In this document: one piece after another, positions 2,600 to 38,597 of the stretch | Position numbering within the stretch: position 1 is the stretch's first letter | How the letters are laid out: each line of letters opens with the position of its first letter | Source of the DNA: Daphnia carinata | Taxonomy: Eukaryota > Arthropoda > Branchiopoda > Diplostraca > Daphniidae | Length of the DNA stretch: 64,000 bases | Assembly: GCF_022539665.2 (NCBI RefSeq) | Contig: NC_081333.1 | Location: 4,772,971 to 4,836,970, forward strand | Reading direction: 5' to 3' | Notes under the pieces: generated by a model | Seen by the model: the letters and a program-made list of their open reading frames with translations, nothing else | The model's database searches: none | What the model was told of the DNA's origin: nothing | Made by a program: the position numbers and the translations under genes

Positions 2600-5400
2600 A
2601 TAATACACAATAGCTAACAAACTATGTATCAGTAAATTGGTTTCACATTAAACTTCCTTGTTTCGTAGCTCGAAATAAGGGGAACTCAGAAGTTCGTAGA
2701 GTTGCGACTTCGCTGTTGTATGCAGCGAGTAGAATTGACTTGTATTAATGACCAGTATTTGCAAGTGTGTATCAGCGTGTGGTGTCTGTAATTACGATTA
2801 AGGTTAAGGAAAGCTAGGCATGCAACATATACAACAAATACCTGAGATAGCACGAGAGACAGTGTTTGCCACTCAAACTATGGGATCACACTACACAAGT
2901 TTCCTGCAATTTAGTTCACGGCGGTCTAGAATGCACCCACATGCAGAATGGGACAATTAGATAAGGCGAAAAGAGACAGAAAATAGAATTTACCTGAAGG
3001 AACAGATTCACTAACGATAAACACGGTGATTACTTCAATGACAAATGGTACAGCAGACGAAAAGTTGCAAGAGGAAGGGAAATATAGGAAAACAGAAAGG
3101 CGCCAAAACTATACGATTAATAAACACGCGTTGCCAGATATTATAGGCTGCAGCGCTACATTTGCGCCGTAACATTCCTTATACGTAAAAATCTACGCAG
3201 ATTGGGTCCTGAACTTTCCCTCAATACGACTGTGAGCCAATGGCTCTATAACATTTCGAGCAAAAGAAGCTCAGTATTTTCCCATTCATAAAGAAAATTT
3301 GGTAACAAAAAGGCAGAGAATTCGTGGCTGTTGTGCGGGTGCGTTTTTTGAGCGGGTGGGCAAGACTCCACCTAGCTAAGTTTCGCCCCAAGCAACCTTG
3401 ATTGGTCCAAGTCATGAGAAAGTACCACTCTTTAATGGTTTAGAGGCCAGGCATGGGCTCTTGTACCAGCAGGAATATTTACGAATGGGCCAACCCACTC
3501 GTTTGCGTAAGACAAGCCAACGTATGAAGCCAAGTTCTATTTACCCATTTACAACATGAAAAACAAAAACAGTGGTTGGTGCCAGATTGCTTTTATTGGA
3601 CGACAAAGCTATAGGCAGCTCACCATATGGCTACCACGCCGTTGTCTGACGTTCAGTACACTAATGCTGTCATGGTGTTTAATGTTCCAAAAGTATGTTG
3701 ATCGACAGATGTGGTCTACGATGAGCGACGTACTTAGAAACAAGGCGGGGAATCCTGGGTGAATAAAATCTCTGCAGTTACTGTACCACAGTTTGTCTCC
3801 ACGTCTAAGTTCTGTTATGGCGCAAGCTCGTAAGTATTCCCCAACAAGGGAATTGACGGAGTCTCATAAAACAACTCTTGTGTCTCTGTTAATTTCATGA
3901 AATCCTGTATAGTGTGTAGACTGAAAGAAGGACCAAGTTGAAATGTGTTACGGGAAATAGCAGTCGGATTCGACTTTTGGCTCCACGGTGGCCACAGGGA
4001 CGTTTCGATATGAACTCCTTTCGGCTTCGCTGTAGTGACGGATTCGCTATGTGGGTGTTTGGTCGTTGATGCTCAAATACCGACATCGGTTAGCCGTTAG
4101 TTGTGCGTACAAATTCGGTCTAGGTATTTCATAAAGAGGAAAATCGGGTGAATTGAAACGCTGGGCAATTAGAATTTTTTTCTCTCGACGTATGAGAGGA
4201 AATACCTTTGAAGCGGAGATCGTCCGTTTTTGTTCCGGCATATATATATCACTCTATATGTGTACATTGCAAAAAAATGCGGTAGTTATTCCCAACGTTT
4301 TGGTTGCCTTACCTATCCTTTTCTGACATCTTCCTGTAGCTCCTAGTTATAGTAGTATAGTTCAAGGAAACATGACAATTTTCCTATGCTTCGTTTGCTA
4401 TACCTGACCTGTGACGCATTTTACTGCAACCACCTTAGGGTTAGCAGATGATGCTTGGCTACTGGCATTCTTTTCAAATGCACGCAGCCATCGTCAATTA
4501 TTATTATTATTTTATTTTTTTTTGTATCAACTCGTGTCATTCTTCGTGTCTTTTGTCACCAACTCCAAGTCTGAAATAACTCATGGTCAATATTTTGTTT
4601 TTATATCCTACGTGATGCACGCTGCTATCGCTTCTTATCCAACTAATCTTTAGTGCGATACTCTATGCAATCGGGAGTGGTGGTGATAGTGAAGGTTTAA
4701 AAGCGCTGGGTAATCTTTCCAGTCTGTACCGTCTAGTAGTTGTCAAGTCGATCATCCAAGTGATTTTTCGGGAAAAAAGTGTGAAACTGGAGAGAACATT
4801 AATAAAAGGGTAAAGGAGAAAAACGTTGGCGCTTGTGAGTCAGCTACGTTTGCGATTTCAAGTGTATAATTCGTGCTCACAAGTATGGGCCACTGATTAA
4901 AAAGGTTAAGACTTTAATTTTTTTTTCTATAGTTTTAGTTCTGTTTTGCCTTACATTATGCAGTGAGAAATGAGGTGACCTATAAAGTAGTAGATTTTTA
5001 GACCAAAACGAAGACTGTTTTCTCAAAAATAACATTTTTTTATTGAAAATCTTAATACTTGGATGTCTACGTTACTCCATTCTTTCAGCCAAAACAAAAA
5101 AATTACGTTTGCATTTTTCGTTTTTCGTTTAAAATTTTAAAATGTTTCGCGGTTAATGATCAATTGAAAAGTGGAGTGCTGCAGGCATAGATAAGTTTCA
5201 TTTACTTGCCCTTATTTATTTATGCTTGTTCAAATAAAACAAGGTGAGTGGCTTATTGAATTAAATTATGGGCGATCATTATTAGGATATAATAATAGCT
5301 GTTCCATCTAAATCGATTATAACAAATTTTCGTGTATTTATAGTTATAATTTTGTTTTAGACAAAACACTGTTGACTAATACGTACATCACCAATTCACA
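2600..5400. other. Intergenic stretch, nothing recognised
   Basis: AT-rich in its second half. Open frames are short and show no family motif on either strand. The last few hundred bases must hold the promoter of the SecA-like gene; no clear TATA box was found. Confidence 0.45.
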
Positions 5401-8400
5401 ATGGATCGTGGGGAACGGAGTAATGGCCCATTAGATGCGTTGACCTCGTTATCATGCCATCACTATGAAACACCGGAAGATGTCTTTCAAGACATCTTAA
5501 GCTGGATTCAGGATGCAAATACCGACCCGAAACTAGCTGAAAATGCCGTCAGTCACATCAGTGAAAAGGTCGGGCGCATACTCAAACCGTTAGAAACGTC
5601 TTGTGTTGAATCGCAATACGTCAAGGCCCTCTTGACAACGTGGGTAAAGAACAGTTTAAACATGGCGTTTAGCTACTTGGAGGACGAAACTACTGATATT
5701 AGTAAAGAAATGTCTACTATTTTGGATGAACTGGATTCCGTCAATTCTATCAAAGATATTGAAACCAAATTAATCACAGAAAAGTCAAAGCTTTGGACCT
5801 GGTGTGTAAAGGGTAAAGGCTGTTGGTATTTCCAATTGATTCTCGTACAAGAAGAATTGCTCAAAAACACGCCCTGTTTCGTCACCCTTTTAAACCGCTA
5901 TTTTAACAAGTTGAAGAGCTTTATTATCAATAAAATCTTCGCGCGGTGCAGAGATGACGTCATCAATGGCGGATTAAATGGTTCAGAAGTTCAAAAATTC
6001 TTTTCGGCTCTAACTGATTTTTTGACAAACGTCAATGAAGACCCAGATTCACATGACGTTCTTAAAGATTATATGCTTGGAAGCATTCCAACGACAAGTG
6101 ACCATGAAACAGATAGGCAAGAATGGATCAACGAGTTAGTTGAGAAAATTTCAAAAATCTTCCTGCCAAAAACGAGCGATAATGAGAAGGAAGTAATCCC
6201 TGAATGGACGCAGCGATTCAAATTAGCCACGTTGCTAGTAACACCTCAAACCTTTCCGAAACTAAAATTGCTGATCAGGGAAATATGTAAGTATTTTTTA
6301 TTGCCTAAAACCACAATCGAAGTGAGAAAACAGTATGGAAGGGAAATTATTCTTATAAACGGCGTCGCCGTTTTTGTTAGTAAAATGTTGGAGATAATGA
6401 AGGAAATGAAAGCTAACCACAAAAAAGTGAAAGAAATACAAATCGTTGGACAGTCGTCCATTCACATCGATTGTGACTTGCAAAATGAAATCTGGCACGG
6501 ATTCAACGTGGGCATCGTTACCGACAAACTTATTGTTTGCGCAGCTCAGAAAGACAAAAATAGAATGTGGGACGTTTCAGGAAGACATGCTAGTACCGTC
6601 GGATCACGAGGTACTTGTCTAAGTAGACATAAAAATGTCCTGTGTTACGAATTTGATGTATTTTTTTACTTATCAGATGATCAAGAAGCAGGCGAAAGTG
6701 GTGGTAATGTTCGTATTAAATGTAATGAAATAATTGGCGCTGAGCGATGGACGATCGAGTGCAATGGAGGGGACGGAGGTTCTGCTCGAAAATGGTCCGT
6801 GGAAGAATTTAAAAAAGTCTTCAGTCCCATATTACCACTGGTGGAGGAGGCGAAAAATAAAAAAGCAGACAAACAAATTTCCGATCAACCGGCAATAAAA
6901 GATCTCTATGAAAAACTGGAGGATACTCTGCTTGATGATTTCGAATTTGTCGGTGTACGAATTGGCCAGGTGCAAGACGAACGTCAGGCAAGATCCGGCA
7001 GATTAGGCGACGGCAGCGAAATCACGTTTTCATTGTATGAAAGTAAAAAAACAAAAAATCTACACACTGTCATTCTCTGTAAAGGTATCCAATAGGAAAC
7101 ATAGTTTAGAACCAAATATGTATTCTGTTATATCTCTGATCACGCGCTGTCATTTTGAATATTTAGGCGCCGGCGTCGGAAAAGGTGGCTATGGCGGAGA
7201 TGTAATCTTGGAATTGTCGAACAAAGAGCGTGGCCTTCCTCTCGCTGGGATGGAAATGTATCAAGCAATGGACATAGGGGGAGTTGTCTACAAGGCATCG
7301 GGTTCCGACGGTAGAACGGGACAAGCGAGCGGTGATGCTGGTTTCATTTACAACGGAGACCAGAACCAATCAGGAAATTTCATTGGTTTTGAAAATTACC
7401 AAACGCTAGAAATTCGATACTACTCGAAGAAAGATGAATTAAAAAAAGATAAAGTTATATCGTATGCCAGAGCTTATGGTTGCTCAGAAAATCAACGCTA
7501 TGCAACAATCGTTTCAACATTCGGGCAGCAAAAAGGAAGTTCTGTTTCACCGAGGGAAGCCACAAAGAAAAACGCCGTCATTCGACAGAGCCTCGTCCAT
7601 CATTTTACAAAGATTAATGTGCGGAAGCAAATGAACGAATCTCTCTGCAAGACGTTTTTGTTTGATCCGTTGGAAGAAAATCAGTCTCTAAACATCGACC
7701 AACTGATGGAAGAAATTCAAAGTAATGAGGCACATTTCGATGATCTAGTTTACTTACAATTTAATCAAGAGAAGGTACGATGTACCAAACCAGTACCTGT
7801 CGTGAAAAGCAGTGCGACCTGCGCTCCGAGCGTATCCCCAAAAATAGCCAGCAATGTCCGAACACTTAGCGAAGATAATAAAGAAAATCGAAGAATGCTA
7901 GAAAGATTCCTGAAGGACAACTTGGAAAATTTCAAGCCGGACACCTGGAAACAGCTGTCAGAGCAACTTAAATTGGAATCAAAGAAAAAAATCGAAAAGC
8001 TGGACGAACGACTGGTATATATCTTCAGCTACCTTAACCATGAACGGAATTCACGGCAGAAAGAGAACATCGGGAAGAAATGGAATAAGAAAATCAATAT
8101 TAACGAAACAGAAGATGGTTTGAAATCGTTAGCCGTATTTTTGTACGACTTTGAGTGCGCCGTACAGCAACTTCGTAAACCCACAGACGACAACTTCCGA
8201 CTCCGTGACAACCAGATCTTGGCAGTGCTGATGTTGCTCCCTAAACCAAAAATGTCGTTTGATGTGACTAAGCAACCATTTTATCGAAGTTTAGCTCAAG
8301 TATCAACTGGCGAGGGCAAATCGCTGATTGTGGCTGCCGTGGCCATTGTTCATGTTCGTCATGGATTCAGCTCTAAAAAGCCAATCGACGTGATTACTAG

Positions 8401-11400
8401 TAACGACTTATTAGCACTTCGTGATTCCAACCTTTTGGTCGCAGAAGGAGGACTGAAAGATCTCTACGAATATTTCGATGTGTCGGTGGCAAACAACTCC
8501 AGCCAATCAGAAGACATTCGCAAAGCAAGTTATTCTGCGGAAGTAGTTTACGGACAATTGGCCAACTTCCAGCGTGATTACTTATTGGATAAATTTTACG
8601 ATCGTAACATTCGTAGTGATCGTGAATTCACGTATGCCATTATTGACGAAGTGGATTGCATGTTGCTTGATCGTGGCAACAACACTCTCTATTTATCCCA
8701 TGACATTCCAGGCATGGAAACGCTGGAGTCTTTGTATGTTTTCATTTGGGAAAAGATATGCAACTCCACTATTGATAGGAACAATTCAAAAGAACAAGTT
8801 AAAAAATCAATTAAATGTGATGTGTTATTCGACTTGTATGGCGTGACAACTAAAGACGATCTGAAGTCAGTTCATGCGCCATTAGACGATTCGGAAAAAG
8901 ATGTACTGTGGAACCACCTGATTGAGAAAGAAGTGATTGACTCACAGGGACGCCTACTAATTGAAAATGCCAACAAAATGACTAGAGAGGTCATCTATAC
9001 CCCCATGCAACTCCAACGAAAAAATCTGGATGAGAAATTGATTTTCTATTTCAGCAGAGTGGCTAATCGCCAGCGTCGAATTCGAATACCTGTCCATCTG
9101 CTCGACTTTGTTGACCGGCACTTAAGCACTTGGTTAGAAAGTGCTTTTCAGGCCCTGGATCTACGACCCGACGAGGACTACGTCATTGATCAAGATCGAA
9201 CACACACTAACCCCGATCTCAATCCGCAAGTGATTATTATCGATCCCGACACTGGAACGGATCAAACTTCTTCTCAATGGGACGGAGCCTTGCACCAGTT
9301 CATTCAGCTGAAAGAAGGATGTAAATTGACGCTACAGAGTCTCAAAGCGATTTTCATCTCGAATGCTATGTACATCTTGAAATACTTCGGACTAGTAGGT
9401 GTGTCGGGTACGCTGGGATCCGAAGAAGAAATGTTTTTTCTACAAGATACAATTAAGAGTGAGTTGTTCCCCATTCCTAGGGCTTTCGTTAACCGTTTTA
9501 AAAAGGAAGATGCCCAAGTCCTGACGACTAAAGAAGAATGGCTAAATGCCATTAGCCTTGAAACCAAAACTATTATTGAAAAAGGACGTTCAATCATCAT
9601 CTTTTGCAAGTCCATCAAAGATGTTAATCTCATTCATCAACGACTAACGCATTCCATTCTTGAGCTGAATGGAAACAGTTGTCTCCATCGCTACACGCGC
9701 GATTACGTGAAATTTGCATTTCAAAGAACGGAACTGGACATTGGGCATGTTATTGTCGCTACCAACTTGGCTGGACGAGGCACAGACATAAAAATCAGCA
9801 AACAGCTGAGCGTTAATGGAGGATTGCATGTATGTCTTAGTTATTTCCCCGAGAATGAACGGATTGAGGAACAAGCGATGGGTCGTGCAGCTCGGAATGG
9901 AGCACCTGGAAGCGGAATCCTCATTATATGCAAGTCAATTTCGTGCAACGGGATGGCGCGTGACGGAAAGGACATTCGTAACTTGACAGAAATAATGAAA
10001 AATGAGCGCGACATTCGTGAGAAAGAACGGATCGCTCGGTTGGAAGAAGATTTCAAATTAATGGGTGATCAGGCAAAATTATTTGATCAGTTTTCTAAGT
10101 ACTATACTGATCTAAAAAAAAAGCGGAAAAAATACGGTGATCAGTTGGTGAGTGCCATCTGTGGAAGTGTGTTAGATCAATGGGCTTTATGGCTCAACGA
10201 AATGAATAGTTGCCCATTAGACGTGAAAATTCATTCATATTTAACAAAATTTCTTCTAAAATTCAAAGCTCTTGATCAAGATAATTTTGATATCAGTCAA
10301 ATCGGGTGGATGACACCAGCTCGTTCAGTTGTTGTTGCCAAACATTTAGCTACGAGCAACAAGAAGCCGAATCTCTCGGCGGCAACCGAACTATTGGAAC
10401 AACTCATTCAATCAAAAGATAACCAATTTTATCCCGCCGCTTACTACTACCGCGCATTCCTTTTGCTGAAGGACAGCTATGAAGTAAACAAAAATGAATT
10501 TATAAAAACATTACGTACATGCGAAAATGTGTTGAGTGAGCACATCAACATGCAAATATCGTTTTTTTCTATTGTCCAAACGACGATCAGGAAAACTGAT
10601 CAGCTTCTTTCCTTTCGTGTTATCTATGGCTATACACAACAAAAAGAAAACATGGTTAATCTGTTTCAATATTTTGTTGGTTCAGTTCGTTCATTGCTGG
10701 GCACTGATTGTTCCATTGAAGACTTTGAAGCAGCAGGACACCTTCCAAAAAAAATTGAAGAATTTTTTGAAAAACATCTGAAGAACTTTGAAAAATGGAT
10801 TCAACGCGAAGTTCATGGAAACTTCAAAGTTTTTCAAAAAAAAGACAAAAACAACAAAGAATCAAAGAATTTTACAATTCCACCTGAAAAGGTAGAGGAA
10901 TATTTCAAGTTATTGCTGGAGGGTGAATCCAAATGTATTGGTAACCAGCTGAATGACGCCAACACAATACCGAGCTGGAATTCTCCCATCGGAAAAAACG
11001 CAAAATCAAATCGAGAATGGTCCATTGAAAGAGTAGCAAAAGCCTATGGTGTCTCTGCATTTACCTTAGAAAAGTCACTGAATCAAGCGATAACAAAAGA
11101 ACTTAACAAAGAGGATATTGAAAAAGAAATAGAAAACGAAACAAAAAAGAAATTTGAAGAAGACAATTTAATTCCTTGTACGAGGGACTCGTTCTGGGCG
11201 AGATTAGTTGAATTCGGAGCATTGTTTAACAATCAAAATTTCGTAGCCATGGATGAGTGCAACGTCGACAAGTATAATTTAAAACGGGAGGAGGCCAAAA
11301 CATTTCCCTTTGACGACAAAGATTACGTGCTATACAACCCCATTAATGACAATAGCAAGAACGGACAAGAAAAAAAAATTATTTTCTCACAAAAGTATGT

Positions 11401-12544
11401 CGAAGAAACTCTTTATGGTAACCGCATGAAAAGCTTTCGTCGAGATCAGTTTCAGGTCAACAAAATTGCCAAAGTTGATGTCGAAAAACTCAAATCAGTC
11501 GATCTCAAATTATTTGGCCAATTGACCTACGACGATCTACGTGAGGCCAATATCAGCCCGACTGAACGTCAAGGAATTATAGACGAGTTGAAAAAGCAAG
11601 ACATCATTGACGACGATGGTAATCTTTCACCCAATTACAATGGGCAAAAATTCGAATATTCAAACTGTCCTGCTTACGAAGACAGTGTCGTGCGTTTACT
11701 GGGGAGCAAATTACGTGCAGAAATAGTTAGACGACACTGGTTGAATTGCAAAGACAATTCAAATCGTCTCGAAGCAATCAATTTGCTACCTTTGACACCT
11801 TATCGAGATATACTGGATGATTTAATTGCTGCCTACGTCGTCAGTTACGGTGTCCGGGTGAAAGGAATGGATGAACGTATTCTCGAAACAAAAGTGAATG
11901 AAATCACCAAAAAAGACCATGAGCGCGAGTGTATTTTGGATTTTTTGAGAAGCCGGCAAGCAATTTACGAAGCCAGTTGGATGGCAAATCAAAAGGCAGC
12001 GCTTGACTTTATCGACAGTGACATCCGCAACGTAAAGGGCAACACCTTCGAAAGCGAATTGTGCCTTCTTCATTTGATAGGATTCGATCACGTCATATAT
12101 ATGAAGGATCGCCACATGTCTACAAAACAGGTGGTCTTGTCATCCCTTATTACACCATTCATTATCATCGGTGGAGTTGCCTCGATTAGTGCTGGGGCTG
12201 TTTTAACCATCTTCAGCAAACTATTGCCATTCCGTTTCGGGAAAGATTTGCTTTTCATGGGTGGTCTTTCGGACATAATCTACATATTTACGGCGGCTTT
12301 ATCAAATGACAGAATCAGCTTTTCTGGTTATGCACGCCAAAAAATTAGGAGCTCAATAGGTAAATCGAATATTGCAGACCAAGTCAAGACTCTTTGGACG
12401 TTATCAAAACCTGGAAAACTTGGTGGCAATAACTTTAGACCTGCGGTCCTAATCCATATGGACACTTTTCACGGTCGACGAGGAAAAAATCGTGAAGCGG
12501 ATAGACAAAAAATATTCAACGCTTTACTTCAGCTAAAAAAATAG
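5401..12544 (+). CDS. Giant SecA-type DEAD motor protein (2353 residues, 2 exons)
   Basis: Exons 5401-7084 and 7167-12544 join across an 82-bp GT..AG intron (donor aaag/gtatcc, acceptor atttag/gcgccgg) with matching phase. Residues 1-400 are mainly helical and unrecognised. Residues about 400-660 hold glycine-rich repeats (ECNGGDGGSA, AGVGKGGYGGDV) like those in other eukaryotic SecA-like proteins as I remember them. The motor follows: Walker A TGEGKS at 942-947, DEVD at 1055-1058, GVSGTLG, ATNLAGRGTD at 1426-1435, and QAMGRAARNGAPGSG from 1464, with both motif VI arginines kept. These are the SecA helicase motifs in order and with near-canonical residues. The C-terminal 850 residues are helical with a TPR-like stretch and two hydrophobic segments near 2217-2244 and 2250-2272. 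Bacterial SecA is about 800-900 residues and has no such flanks. It is probably an intact ATPase; substrate, partner and location are unknown. Animal flanking genes and the intron argue against bacterial contamination. Confidence 0.9.
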
Positions 12545-14081
12545 CGGAAAATCCAAGTAAGAAAGATGGAAATTCGGTTCATTAGGCAAACTGATAAAAT
12601 TAGCTGTCGTTTGGACGGTGAAATACTACTTAATTAAATTCTTATTTATAGACGGCGACGTCGTATGTGAAACTTAGATCTCGCCATCGGATTAAAGCAA
12701 AGTACGCAATATGGAAAATTAAGGTCAACCGAAGAGTTGATGGAATTCGGAATGCTAATTATAGTCAAAATCGGTACAATAATGAACTATAGAATTATAT
12801 CCCGAGCAAGAAATGTGGCTGCCTTATGACGTTATTGGACGCTGCAAGATATTGGCAATCAAATAAGTTGAGTGATGTCGACATCTTGCATGAAACATTT
12901 GTGCATTGATATATCAACAATATGTCAAAGTGGGATTTTTTTGTCGTTATTTGTTTTTTACTTTGGTTTTCGGTTTTTCAAGAGGGAAAACATTCATACG
13001 GTTTTTTGGTTTTCTTTTTTACCCTACTCAATTTTTTAGGGAACAGATTACGAAAATGATTGTTGTAGTAAATTTGGGTAAAAGTTCGTATTCGGACAGC
13101 ATTTTGGCTAACAGACTTCCTTATGGGAAATGTGTGTATAGCCGATTTGCTAATTCCGGACAGTCATAGTTTTAAAAACTAATGGATTCATTCGATTCAG
13201 CTTTTAATTCTGAATCGAATTGCTGAAGACAACAAAGTGGATGCAATGAGAAAAAAAACTGAGAAATTGATTATTAATAACCATAACGAGGATCTGTCAA
13301 AACGAAATATCCGTTCCAATCCAACTGACACACGACCAAGCCTTTTCCAAAACAAAAAAATGCATTTAATTGACATAATGATACATTAATCTCAATACGT
13401 AGCCTTGGTGCATAAGTTTACTGGTAACAAATGAAAAAGTAAAAAGTGGTGGATATTACGAGAAAATCACGTTAAAATTACCGTAAATATGCCTTAAAGT
13501 CCGAAATCTATCGTATATAGTAAAAATTCATCATAAATCAAGGTAATTCTCTCCCCATTTTATTCGAAGTTTTATACGAAACTTGATTGTTCTTCAAAAA
13601 CATTTTATCCTACTTTCCTTATATTAAGAAAGTGAGCTGCGTAAAGTCGCAAGACATCATCGCATACCTCCTAAAGCAAACGAAGAGAGAAGCAAAACAT
13701 TTGCAATTTATTTCTTCAATTAACAACTGCAATTCACAACGTTCTGTGATTCACGTGTGCTTCACAAACGGAACGGTTAATTTTACAATCATGCAGAAAA
13801 ACGACATTACCTATTCAGCAGCCAAAGGAATAAACGAGAGACTAACATTCAAAAGAAGCGATATCCTCATAAAACATTCGACACCTTAAAAAAACCTACT
13901 AATATTTCATCCTAAAACATTAAACAGTTCCAAAATGCCTCAACATGCTTTGTGAGCAGATTAATTTAGACGGGAAACAGTCATGAAAAACTTAGACTGA
14001 ATACGAAAAAAAAAAAAAAAAACAACACAAGCAAACAAACAAACAAAACTACAATACAAGCAATAAAAAAATTTAACCCCA
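12545..14081. other. AT-rich intergenic stretch, nothing recognised
   Basis: Between the converging SecA-like gene and the minus-strand gene. It contains a poly-A run around 14008-14025 and short frames without motifs. It should hold both 3' UTRs. Confidence 0.45.
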
Positions 14082-16263
14082 TTAAATGATATTTGGAAAT
14101 AGTGGATATTCAGCGTTGTTGAACATGGGTCGTGGTTCTTTGGTGGTGCCAGTTACTTGCAGACATATCAATCCTACTACTTCACTTCGTCGGCTCCGTC
14201 TTCTAGTGCACAGGGCTAGTAAGTATAATTTTGTAACACTTACATTTAAAGTTCAAGTTTCAATTTTTTTTACTACCTTTCTGAGCTTCGACCAGTTCTT
14301 TCTTCAACTCTCACCTTTCATTTCAACCACATAATAAAGCATCTTTTTTTTGTGCACCTACAATTCGGATGAAAATAGGTAAGATTGTAGATGGGTTTCT
14401 GACACATGATAACCGATTTCAGATGAACCTCGAAATTTGGATTAACTCTTTTTCGCTGACTGCAACTTATTAGATCGACGGCATAGGAATTATTATCTAA
14501 CGACGTTCATTAGGCGCGGCGAATTGTAAACTCTCACAGATAGCAGGATATCTTTCAGTAGAACAAATGTCACAATCTATGACTGATATTTTAAGTAATA
14601 TGGTAAAGTTAGTCAGTCTCTTAAAGATAAGGATATCTTTTTATATACTTTCAGCTGTGTCCGGCCAAACGGAAGAATCGAGGACGGATGAACAATCCTG
14701 TTTCTCCGCTTCGGTATATTCTATTGGACAATTTGGAGTTACCTTCTCGTCGGTGCGGATTTGGCATTGCTGAGTGCAAAATTTCTCAAGGTCCTCAGAA
14801 GTGAAAAATGATGAAATTGTTACACCGTCAATTTCATCTATCTGACGAAGGGTTTCACATTTAATAGTTGAAAAGTCCCCAATGATTCTTTCACTAAGCA
14901 ATGACCCTGGGAAACGAAAATGTAAGTTATTCTACATTGTGAGCTAAAATATGCAAGTAGGCCTACTCATGGGTATGGTCTTTATAATGGGCGCCACACC
15001 AATGCATAGAAAATTGCTGGCCGGAGTACAATGCCGATAATGCCCAGGGTTTCGGAGAGAAGACTTCCTTGAATGAATTTTCGCTCTAGCCGAAGAACGA
15101 ATTTCGGACTTCTTCGATACGACCATGGAATTACAACTTAAAAAAGGCCCCGCTATTTCTCGTTCGGATGCAAAAGGTAACAATTCAGCAAATGTAGCAC
15201 ATTTTTTAGCAGGAATAATGCCCGACACTAATGGGTTATAGAAGAAAAATTCCGTTAATTTAGTTAATCTATCACTATGAAGAAAAAGTTTCAGACGAAT
15301 TTTCACAAACCCGGGGTTTTGACTGCGTGCTGCAACACAGGTGTAGTCGGGAAGAATGAAGGAGTGTGAATTTCGGTTTCAGTACCTTCTACGGAAAGTT
15401 TTGAGGTGATTTTCATGTTTCCGTTCATTTGGAATTGTTGCGCACAAAAGTCGTCCAGGTCCTCGATAGTAAAAAATGACGAAATTGTAAAACCATCAAT
15501 TTCATCTACCTGACGTCTGGTTTTACATTCCGTGTTGAGTATGTCATTGCGGTATTTTTCGCTGCAACTTAATGATACTGAAAAATAATAGAAACATTAA
15601 TGGTGAAAATGACGAGGAAAAAAAAATTGCAGATACTTTTGGATTTTGTCTTCCTAGTACGTCGTCGACTTAGAAAAGGAGTGTCGCTAACCAAAGTGCA
15701 ATACCGAAGGGCACGAGCTTTCCGCCAAGGGAGCTTACGCAATTTCGTTTTGATTCCGGTCGAACAACGCGAATTATGAGATAGGTCCATAGAACAAACA
15801 CTATGAACAGATGTTTGTTCTTCCCATCCTTCATTTTCTTTTGGGCCAGTAATCTCGGGAGCAGAAAGACTTAAATCTTTTGGCACAAGATAATTTTGTT
15901 TAGAAAGATAAGAAGCAAATGCCTCCTTGTCCTCTTCATGGAAACGAAGCAAAGGTGGAGGCGACGAATCATCAGATTCGTCTTCAGAAAAACTAACACA
16001 CTCATATGACCATATCTGTGTGCTTGCATTAAGTTTTAACTTGCGCCTGCGGCTTGTAAGGTTCTGTGGACTTCCTAAGTTTGAGAAAAACTGTTCTTGA
16101 ATGAACACATGACGGATCAAATTAGACCACTGTGCTACATACCACATTCACCATGATCTAAAAAAAGTTTCGGCATGTCAGGATCAACATCAAACATGGA
16201 CAAGGAAGTACAGGATGATGAGCAAGTAGAAGTAATATTCTCTTTTTTTCCGTTATTTTCCAT
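14082..16263 (-). CDS. Unrecognised gene with duplicated exon pair, 6 exons
   Basis: Exons (transcription order) 16263-16143, 16074-15637, 15577-15311, 15227-15000, 14906-14649 and 14215-14082 join to 481 residues; every intron is phase 1 and the joined length is a whole number of codons, which supports the model. I do not recognise the protein. Exons 3 and 5 encode related segments: both contain a version of EIDGxTISSFFTxEDL followed by FCxQQ, with cysteines before it. Exons 2 and 4 also resemble each other (RYCTLVSDTPFL and RHCTPASNFLCI, preceded by basic stretches). So an exon pair was duplicated. The protein is serine-rich with basic clusters such as RRRTRKTKSK and TRRRSRRS, which suggests a nuclear protein. 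It has no signal peptide or membrane helix; the hydrophobic run after exon 2 in the genomic frame is intron. The start could lie further upstream. The donor of exon 4 (ATTG/gtgtgg) is weak. Confidence 0.7.
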
Positions 16264-22642: not shown

Positions 22643-22761
22643 TCTCCAGTGGCGTAATTGTTTAGCGCATGGTACTTATAGGACAGTAACTAATTGTGCG
22701 CAATGAACATGCAATCATTGTAAGTAATGCCGAGGTCGCGAGTTCGAACCTCGCCTGGAGA
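22643..22761 (+). tRNA. tRNA-Ile(UAU) with 46-nt intron
   Basis: Acceptor arms TCTCCAG (22643-22649) and CTGGAGA (22755-22761) pair fully; the T arm GCGAG-TTCGAAC-CTCGC is perfect; the D arm GCGT/GCGC and anticodon arm TGGTA/TGCCG pair with G-U. The loop reads CTTATA, giving anticodon UAU at positions 34-36. An intron of 46 nt (22681-22726) sits after position 37, where eukaryotic tRNA-Ile(UAU) introns lie. The mature length is 73 nt. Odd: no run of four or more T follows closely, so termination by RNA polymerase III may be poor and the gene may be inactive. Decayed copies follow the other plus-strand cuticle genes. Confidence 0.85.
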
Positions 22762-23044
22762 ATAAAAGTACTTTATCAATGTTGTTATTATAGCAGAATA
22801 ATAGATGATACCTGTGCATTGTTTCTACAATGGTTTGATGACATAGTAGGCGAGTAGCATAGGAAAGATCGTATAATAGGTCGTAAACATTAATCCTAAA
22901 AGCTCTAAACGAACCATACGACAATAGTTTGGTTTTCAAAATTTGAATACCTCATAGTATAGCGTTGGAATCTTTAAAGTCACGATATGCTAATCGTTGT
23001 TGTAATGGATTTTAGCGCAATATCATTGATTCGTACGTTAATTG

Positions 23045-37055: not shown

Positions 37056-38597
37056 ATGTCTTCGTTGCAATCAACAAACCAGTTTTTGGAGGACAAGTTG
37101 AGAGCACTCCAACTGAGCCTTACGATCGCCGCATGCCTTAACAAGCTCGAATTGTCAGATCACAGCCTTGCGCTGAATAATCGAAAAAATGTGCCATTAG
37201 AAAACGAGTTATCAGAACTAACACAGGTCTTACAGCAAGAACGACAGTCTACTGACAAAGCAGCTAATCTAGATTTAGAAAAGGGAAATGTAAAACGAAA
37301 TCTGGAAGCATTTATTCGTGAAAACCACGAATTAAGGGAACAAGGAACGAATATAGAAGACGATAACGATACCATAGGTAGGACTCAAACCCCACCCACT
37401 GAAACGACAGCGAATGATGACATTCGAGCCCTGGCAACATTAATTAGTCGAGGAGATGAAACCCAGAATATACCCATATACAGTGGGAATGTAAATGACC
37501 AACTGATAGGAGTACGGTTGCGCGTCGCGGAAGCAATAGCTACAATCCATGAATGGCCTCAAGAGTTCATCAAGATGATCCTGGCAACTCGCCTAAAATG
37601 AACGGCACTTCAATGGCATAAAGAGAGACTAACAGAAATTCCAAGAGAAACGTATAACGACTGGAGGAACGCGTTGAAAGAAGATTGTAAGCACTCAGCA
37701 GATAGAGCCCAACAAAAAAGAAAATTTTATTCCCTTAAACAATCTCCAAATCAACCAGTTAGACATTTTATAGACAAAATTACGAAGGCCTATAACATGA
37801 TTTACATGGAGAGCGGCGAGGAAGCGCAAGCTCCGAATAACGAACTAACAGCGCTTGAAAACGACACTTTAATAAAAGTGTTACTAGATGGATTACTTCC
37901 ACCTATTAAAACAATACTTTTGTATTGTAAGTATCCTAGCACACCAAATTGGCAAAACATCGCAAAAGCAGCCCTAGAAGCGGAAGACATCGCTTACAAC
38001 ACGCAAGCATTAGAACCCAAACCCGTGTTTAGACTTGAAAAACAGAAACCAGTAAGCGATATGGAAGCGGAATTAGTAAAACTACAACGAGAAGTGGAAG
38101 ATTTAAAAAACAACCTGATGAAAATAAATCTATCAGGTACAAACCCAAAATTGGAACAAGAACCGTTGCTAAGCATTGTTGACACGTACCAACAAGGTAG
38201 GAACCCATCTAGACAAAATATCGTTCAATGGGAAGATAGATACCCATCTAGAGATAGCTCATACGGTAGAAACTGCCATGATCGATCGTACAAAGAAGAT
38301 CGCGATAGATACCATAATAGGAACCGTTCCGAGTCCCGCGACAGGTCCGCTAGTCGTGGAAGATTTCAGAATAGCACCTACAAACAAAGGGAAAGAAGCG
38401 ATTCCAGGACAAGGTCGTACAGTGGAAGACGAAGGCCTAAGAGCCCGCACCTTCCCTTTGATCCGCCTAAAAAACGAAATTCGTTTAAGAATAATAAGGC
38501 GGATCCCATAACTTGCCACAGATGCCTTAATAGAGGGCACATCGCGAAAAATTGTCGGATAAAAAATCCGAAACGATTCCTAACAAAAACGGAATAG
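37056..38597 (+). pseudogene. Retrotransposon gag remnant
   Basis: One frame runs through this region with a single internal TGA at 37599-37601. The first part is coiled-coil-like, the middle resembles a retrotransposon capsid (KFYSLKQSPNQPVRHFI, then LLDGLLPPIK), and the end is arginine/serine-rich with one CCHC zinc knuckle (CHRCLNRGHIAKNC, about 38514-38555). Upstream, 35832-37055 looks like a further decayed coiled-coil part of the same gene. Right after 38597 a degenerate aspartic protease site is visible near 38675, with its catalytic motif altered. Confidence 0.8.

Follow-up and report, generated by a model that had tools for sequence, protein, structure and literature searches.

A host-encoded, intron-bearing SecA-type gene in Daphnia carinata and its relation to giant SecA-like proteins of bacteria

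Long proteins with a SecA domain were described in 2013 from Daphnia, ants, mosquitoes and Wolbachia (PMC3639933). According to the available passages of that paper, the family has matches in Daphnia, Harpegnathos, mosquitoes and basal eukaryotes, its eukaryotic members form a clade apart from bacterial SecA, transfers have taken place, and the Wolbachia genes include wBol1_1091 and wBol1_1092, the latter under purifying selection. SecA is also one of the domains in the eukaryotic association module of phage WO that are nearer to invertebrates than to bacteria, as stated in the available part of that report (PMC5062602). In Daphnia similoides, a SecA DEAD-like transcript ranks in the top 30 up-regulated in sexual compared with parthenogenetic females (PMC5037449, Table 1); it is a candidate orthologue of the gene described here. 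Among the literature matches listed, titles and the beginnings of abstracts included no functional test of an animal SecA, and most subscription journals lie outside this coverage. In this report, we analyze a SecA-type gene of Daphnia carinata that spans positions 5401-12544, forward strand, of a 64,000-nucleotide stretch of genomic DNA (the window; NCBI contig NC_081333.1) and that appears in NCBI as the uncharacterized LOC130693116.

The window protein is long, carries a SecA motor and has relatives in a eukaryotic clade apart from bacterial SecA, features that place it in the family outlined in the available passages of PMC3639933. The first-pass annotation of this DNA had mentioned SecA_DEAD annotations in other invertebrates, with no known function; the family itself had been described by 2013. 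Some differences are apparent. That paper considers most annotated introns of eukaryotic secA genes to be spurious, whereas one intron position here is common to paralogues. Its available passages contain no clamp-arm module, hydrophobic segment or wider group of symbionts. The phage WO genes, as far as the accessible text goes, are encoded by a Wolbachia phage, whereas the window gene is encoded by an animal (PMC5062602). With canonical SecA (B. subtilis 6itc, 1tf5), the window protein shares Walker A, DEVD, GRGTD, GR..R, an LHQ...K signature and the motor fold; it differs in an altered clamp arm, a poorly aligning helical C-domain, a zinc pattern that was not found, a host without a detected bacterial SecY, and a length about 2.6 times that of complete housekeeping SecA (896-910 amino acids). 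The giant SecA-like proteins of Rickettsiales, Legionellales, Parachlamydiales, Amoebophilaceae and other bacteria (L016-L046; CP113870.1) resemble it in being long open reading frames (ORFs) with a SecA motor and, in 5 of 40 loci, in the hydrophobic C-terminal module; they differ in that no clear arm module occurs. As far as we have seen, the nesting of the animal clade, the repeated clamp-arm module and the hydrophobic segment common to five bacterial loci and to most animal-clade members that extend to it are new.

Matches of the window protein to SecA far exceed chance. Both SecA_DEAD (E 2.8e-27) and P-loop_SecA (5.2e-11) are over their Pfam cut-offs, and a sequence search of the PDB matched SecA chains with a best E of 7.7e-28. 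The motor core, which comprises nucleotide-binding domain 1, the clamp region and nucleotide-binding domain 2, occupies approximately 8138-9931, as delimited by Pfam, the PDB search, an AlphaFold2 (AF2) model with fold search, and a profile alignment with canonical SecA. Walker A (TGEGKS, 8306-8323), the DEAD-type motif DEVD (8645-8656), ATNLAGRGTD (9758-9787) and GRAAR (9881-9895), which we take to be the arginine-finger motif, follow one another in SecA order. In an alignment with 31 animal rows, G.GK[S/T] is present in 30, DE in all 31, GRGTD in 30 and G[RQ]..R in all 31; under stricter patterns, some family members vary within single motifs. The first-pass annotation had reported these motifs, with catalytic residues, coordinates and frame, and had proposed structure prediction as a check on the identity of the motor. 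In the fold search, the AF2 model of the motor resembles SecA structures more closely than it does any helicase, and on this model the motor is SecA-type in overall fold. Both the report and its check were borne out.

The motor is unlike housekeeping SecA in its clamp arm, and probably also in its helical C-domain. The equivalog model for housekeeping SecA, TIGR00963, scored 142.4 bits against a cut-off of 800. Of 18 members, 17 show traces of the clamp domain SecA_PP_bind at E up to 0.1, mostly of its second half, and the fold alignment spans the clamp region. Downstream, the AF2 secondary structure predicts a long scaffold-type helix followed by more helices (9932-11014); some members have TPR-like helices (weak TPR matches in 2 of 18, and in the bacterial locus L017). 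A C-terminal zinc-binding tail is typical of, although not universal in, housekeeping SecA, and a simple cysteine pattern for it was found in none of the 18 proteins checked, the window gene included. The earlier label "bacterial-type" thus fits the ancestry of the motor and not its clamp arm or, probably, its helical C-domain.

The gene is host-encoded, intron-bearing and under purifying selection. Within a 108-Mb assembly, the window occupies 4.77-4.84 Mb of contig C3, and NCBI's copy is on a 13.27-Mb contig. SecA_DEAD matches occur at 17 places in the genome, namely the window gene and 16 elsewhere, several of which cluster on contig C9. Eight paralogous regions were fetched. In seven of these, the match breaks at residue 562, where the intron at 7085-7166 lies, and GT..AG pairs are present in all seven; two of the seven are near-copies on contig C28, three share no more than 46-47% identity with the window protein in the main match, and the eighth region (L073) has no break there. 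In paralogue comparisons that use one or two pairs per region and no significance test, the ratio of nonsynonymous to synonymous substitution (dN/dS) ranges from 0.21 to 0.24 against the two nearest paralogues, with 0.235 and 0.219 for exon 3 (Nei-Gojobori; 1778 and 1777 codons). The motor gave 0.19 in both pairs, which is the lowest of five parts in one pair, whereas in the other only the C-terminal domain is lower (0.18); two paralogues on contig C2, compared with each other, gave 0.37, with 0.27 for the motor. These values, which are not near 1, agree with the selection claimed earlier, just as large contigs and the shared intron position agree with the claim of an animal gene rather than a bacterial join. 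The C28 copies (L074 and L075; 98.9% and 99.7%) correspond to the C2 paralogues L068 and L069; they sit on a 136-kb contig and contain frame breaks, and may represent a haplotig or a recent segmental duplication.

The gene most likely has two introns and, judging from the alignments, encodes a protein of about 2331 residues. The ORFs 5380-7095 and 7007-12544 become one open frame of 2353 codons when 7085-7166 is removed, which was the earlier single-intron model; residue numbers in this report refer to that reading. This 82-bp GT..AG intron holds. A second intron within the earlier exon 1 is probable, because residues 408-428 are missing both from NCBI's model of the same gene and from all 11 other Daphnia proteins aligned (the gap in P0009 is longer). 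The pair at 6611-6676, GAG/GTACTTG ... TTTTTTTACTTATCAG/ATG, has a good pyrimidine tract and is one among 19 open GT-AG pairs listed. Splicing it yields SRDDQEAGES, near SRGDDQEAGES of D. sinensis, and a product of 2331 residues; NCBI model P0001 fits an intron at 6623-6685 instead (2332 residues). LOC130693116 is 100% identical to the window protein across the motor and elsewhere has 21 residues fewer and one adjacent change. The gene model therefore consists of exon 1 (5401-6610, start ATG at 5401, with its 3' end set by the second intron), a probable 66-bp, in-frame and stop-free GT..AG intron (6611-6676), exon 2 (6677-7084, from frame and alignment), the intron at 7085-7166, and exon 3 (7167-12544, an open frame of 1791 complete codons and a stop), all on the forward strand.

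Homologues were considered as the best 120 of 318 proteins. Among the matches listed are five other named Daphnia species (D. sinensis, D. magna, D. pulex, D. pulicaria and D. galeata), which answers an earlier question of whether related crustaceans carry homologues. Flies, mosquitoes, an ant, a bee, a butterfly, a flea, a mayfly, a spider, bdelloid rotifers and nematodes are also among these matches, as are many metagenome proteins that may be animal. A scan of bacteria and archaea, with one genome per species, produced 37 loci. The titles of 22 name Rickettsiales, Legionellales, Parachlamydiales or Amoebophilaceae, where Arcanobacter is presumably a member of the Rickettsiales; the remaining 15 are metagenome-assembled genomes (MAGs) or isolates with unclear lifestyle, six of them unnamed Alphaproteobacteria. 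SecA-like ORFs in bacteria reach about 5,200 amino acids, and an additional housekeeping SecA was present in each of six genomes checked that carry giant SecA-like genes. One 15.7-kb SecA-like gene (L076; CP113870.1, 41399-57076), with a second SecA-like gene adjoining, is carried by a Megaera polyxenophila plasmid, the source being a Euplotes culture.

The animal motor clade nests among these giant bacterial proteins, many of which come from intracellular groups. Trees were inferred in "quick" mode, with support from the Shimodaira-Hasegawa-like approximate likelihood ratio test (SH-aLRT) only, for an initial 98 rows: the window gene, 56 of 121 proteins picked by hand to cover a broad range, 36 of the 40 bacterial or IMG/VR loci (the other four were too short) and five housekeeping SecA proteins. 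In a reduced tree of 86 rows, from which twelve had been dropped (two short, seven long-branched, one identical and two incomplete), the 55 animal-clade rows group together with SH-aLRT 99, which is the outcome of the motor-domain tree that the first-pass annotation had called for. Two bacterial rows, L017 (Legionellales) and L034, are sister to this clade with a support of 98; a further 23 bacterial or IMG/VR rows lie outside, with 85. A fuller tree of 96 rows, with two short rows dropped and a program warning of long branches, agrees. The three Rickettsiales MAG proteins (P0061, P0063 and P0093) fall inside the arthropod part; their contigs measure just 3.6-9.8 kb and may be host DNA that was mis-binned. 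Their placement fits either mis-binning or the transfer from animals to Wolbachia argued for in the passages available from PMC3639933. For the animal and bacterial rows sampled, the simplest history is acquisition by an animal from a bacterium, then spread between animals, then some returns, and some copies in arthropod Rickettsiales and in Wolbachia look like such returns.

Beyond the motor, a module of about 70 residues occurs twice, once in the arm leading to the clamp (residues 1114-1194; 8822-9064) and once near the C-terminus (2006-2077; 11498-11713). In hhalign, the copies match each other with probability 97.3 and E 2.4e-11, and they form a diverged internal repeat. The profiles used here and below (arm, C-terminal and N-terminal) were built from the same protein set in which matches were later counted. 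The 48-residue profile of the arm copy matches every one of the 121 proteins searched, some of which went into building it; against ORFs of the 40 bacterial or IMG/VR loci and five housekeeping SecA proteins, it gave one marginal match, outside the motor. A conserved C-terminal domain (residues 1848-2307; 11024-12403) has profile matches somewhere in 112 of 121 proteins, partly via the repeated module, and 78 of these span its hydrophobic part. Its AF2 model has a predicted local distance difference test (pLDDT) score of 65.1 and found no fold match in the PDB. Within this domain lies a conserved hydrophobic segment (12116-12220), a putative membrane helix or hairpin, whose hydropathy of up to 2.22 across 19 residues is the highest in the protein. 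Among the 78 animal-clade proteins with a spanning match, the segment reaches a hydropathy of at least 1.6 in 71 and is the protein maximum in 66. The same segment is found in ORFs of five of the 40 bacterial or IMG/VR loci, each time with a QI core, which is lost in Daphnia, and each time as the maximum of the ORF; in L016, L017 and L026 it is C-terminal to the motor in one ORF.

The N-terminal parts of the family, as judged from profiles, are variable. A conserved domain at residues 298-463 (6292-6789, spanning the 66-bp intron) was defined with a profile seeded on residues 290-470, which matches 48 of 121 proteins, including those of rotifers, nematodes, mosquitoes, a flea and an ant. A profile of residues 20-290 matched 31 proteins, every one named Daphnia, and a glycine-rich profile of residues 540-690 gave 43 matches, namely Daphnia, unnamed proteins and two flies (P0087 and P0090). 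None of the N-terminal profiles matched the bacterial loci, except for one fragment (L047). That fragment lies on a contig of an Alphaproteobacteria MAG and matches both the animal N-terminal domain and, at 45%, the motor; it may be mis-binned animal DNA. Some members have other C-terminal domains. D. pulex P0047 ends in a protein kinase domain (E 1.4e-30), which may reflect either a genuine fusion or two genes joined in the model, and the unnamed P0114 and P0095 end in the nuclease domain Endonuclease_NS_2.

We propose, with a probability of about 0.45, that the window protein is a membrane-tethered, ATP-driven polypeptide motor domesticated from a protein of the symbiont-effector type, a reading drawn from sequence comparison and structural models. 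Sec61-alpha was the only SecY-family gene found in the genome and no bacterial channel for the motor was detected; a SecY-free, tethered motor is suggested because the protein has a hydrophobic segment in cis and an altered clamp arm. The protein would work like SecA, in cis: ATP hydrolysis between two RecA-like domains would drive a polypeptide through or against the clamp, the arm module would help to select the client, and the hydrophobic C-terminal segment would tether the motor to a membrane, replacing the SecY partner. The product would be a one-polypeptide, membrane-tethered unfoldase or translocase, and it probably descends from an effector-like protein that an animal acquired from an intracellular bacterium. 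In the weakest step, the expanded Daphnia family may take part in conflicts with intracellular microbes, in their control, or in reproduction; the many Daphnia copies and the effector-like relatives suggest, rather than show, that the proteins work against such microbes or together with them. The most novel form of this proposal is unlikely: a domesticated, SecY-free translocase in one polypeptide, composed of a SecA motor, its own membrane-inserting segment and a client-choosing clamp module, that acts on proteins of intracellular microbes or at host membranes.

Several observations weigh against the proposal. SecA_PP_bind scored 15.3 bits in the window protein, under the cut-off of 23.5, and profile alignment of the helical C-domain with canonical SecA is poor past about model residue 640. 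The two-helix finger of SecA pushes clients; because this domain aligns poorly, such a finger is only putative here. For the repeated module, no PDB entry reached a convincing E-value. The hydrophobic segment falls in a low-confidence stretch of the AF2 model (model residues 314-416, pLDDT <50), and a single hydrophobic helix is no proof of membrane insertion. No match to the C-terminal segment was found in 35 of the 40 bacterial or IMG/VR loci, and in two of the five that have it (L030 and L044) segment and motor are in separate ORFs. ATPase, unfolding and membrane activities are all predicted, and copy number and ancestry alone suggest the role in immunity or symbiosis. We infer effector status of the bacterial proteins from their size, their lifestyle and the accessible portion of a report on Amoebophilus effectors (PMC3482391).

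The best-surviving alternative, which we consider somewhat unlikely, is that the motor is an ATP-driven switch or scaffold in a large sensor or effector, in which nucleotide binding opens or closes the protein and exposes its N- or C-terminal domains without moving a polypeptide. Its location in the middle of very long, variable proteins, the kinase (P0047) and Endonuclease_NS_2 (P0114 and P0095) domains, and the numerous and diverse copies fit such a switch. However, the hydrolysis motifs persist in 30-31 of the 31 animal rows, and 17 of the 18 members retain traces of the clamp domain, which exceeds the needs of a bare switch, and the motor is among the most constrained parts of the protein. 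Less probable still is a nucleic-acid helicase with a DEAD-type core acting on RNA or DNA: the Pfam DEAD model, our criterion for an RNA helicase, gave 18.3 bits where its cut-off is 26. Neither exon translation matched any PADLOC anti-phage model at E up to 0.01.

We see little prospect that the protein is a true SecA partner of the host Sec61 or of a mitochondrial translocon, serving post-translational import. The motor is SecA-like, Sec61-alpha is present, and in the silkworm an export role was guessed from the SecA name, according to the available text of that paper (PMC4328555). However, the Daphnia genome has numerous and varied copies, family members are very unlike one another outside the motor, the C-terminal zinc pattern was seen in 0 of 18 proteins checked, and to our knowledge most animals lack a SecA-type gene, which we count against such a partner. 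A selfish or mobile gene family, maintained by its own spread rather than by a function for the host, is equally improbable: the 17 SecA_DEAD places in one genome, the near-copies on C2 and C28 and the plasmid location of some bacterial relatives would suit it, whereas no inverted or long direct repeats were found in 3000-15500, Pfam detected no transposition domain in the protein, and several copies form a group on C9 of the kind that local duplication would produce. Recent contamination, an assembly join or a decaying symbiont insertion has almost no chance of being correct even though symbiont DNA insertions are common in animals and the bacterial homologues come largely from symbiont groups; the gene is not contamination, because NCBI's copy is on a 13-Mb contig, the genome has 16 further SecA_DEAD places, and the gene shares an intron position with paralogues and has a dN/dS of about 0.2, and in addition the D. 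sinensis relative is 90% identical across the motor and two adjacent ORFs have Pfam domains above cut-off, one of them insect cuticle.

Six further ORFs of the window were scanned: one has the insect cuticle domain, one DUF382, one a gag-like match below cut-off, and three have none. The retrotransposon gag-like ORF (37602-38597) has E 5.4e-4, below the Pfam cut-off, and a CCHC-like motif. At 22643-22762, an Rfam tRNA match of 46.2 bits extends over 120 bases; it was not called by ARAGORN with the settings used and may contain an intron.

Should the motor be active, animals would possess a functioning counterpart related to the bacterial secretion motor, kin to proteins that intracellular bacteria may use on their hosts, and this counterpart has multiplied in the model animal Daphnia, whose genes are amenable to knock-down or removal. 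If the proposal is true, a SecY-free SecA that brings a membrane segment of its own would illustrate how such a motor can be uncoupled from its translocation channel, and it would provide a function for many proteins now named "uncharacterized" or "protein translocase subunit SecA" in databases.

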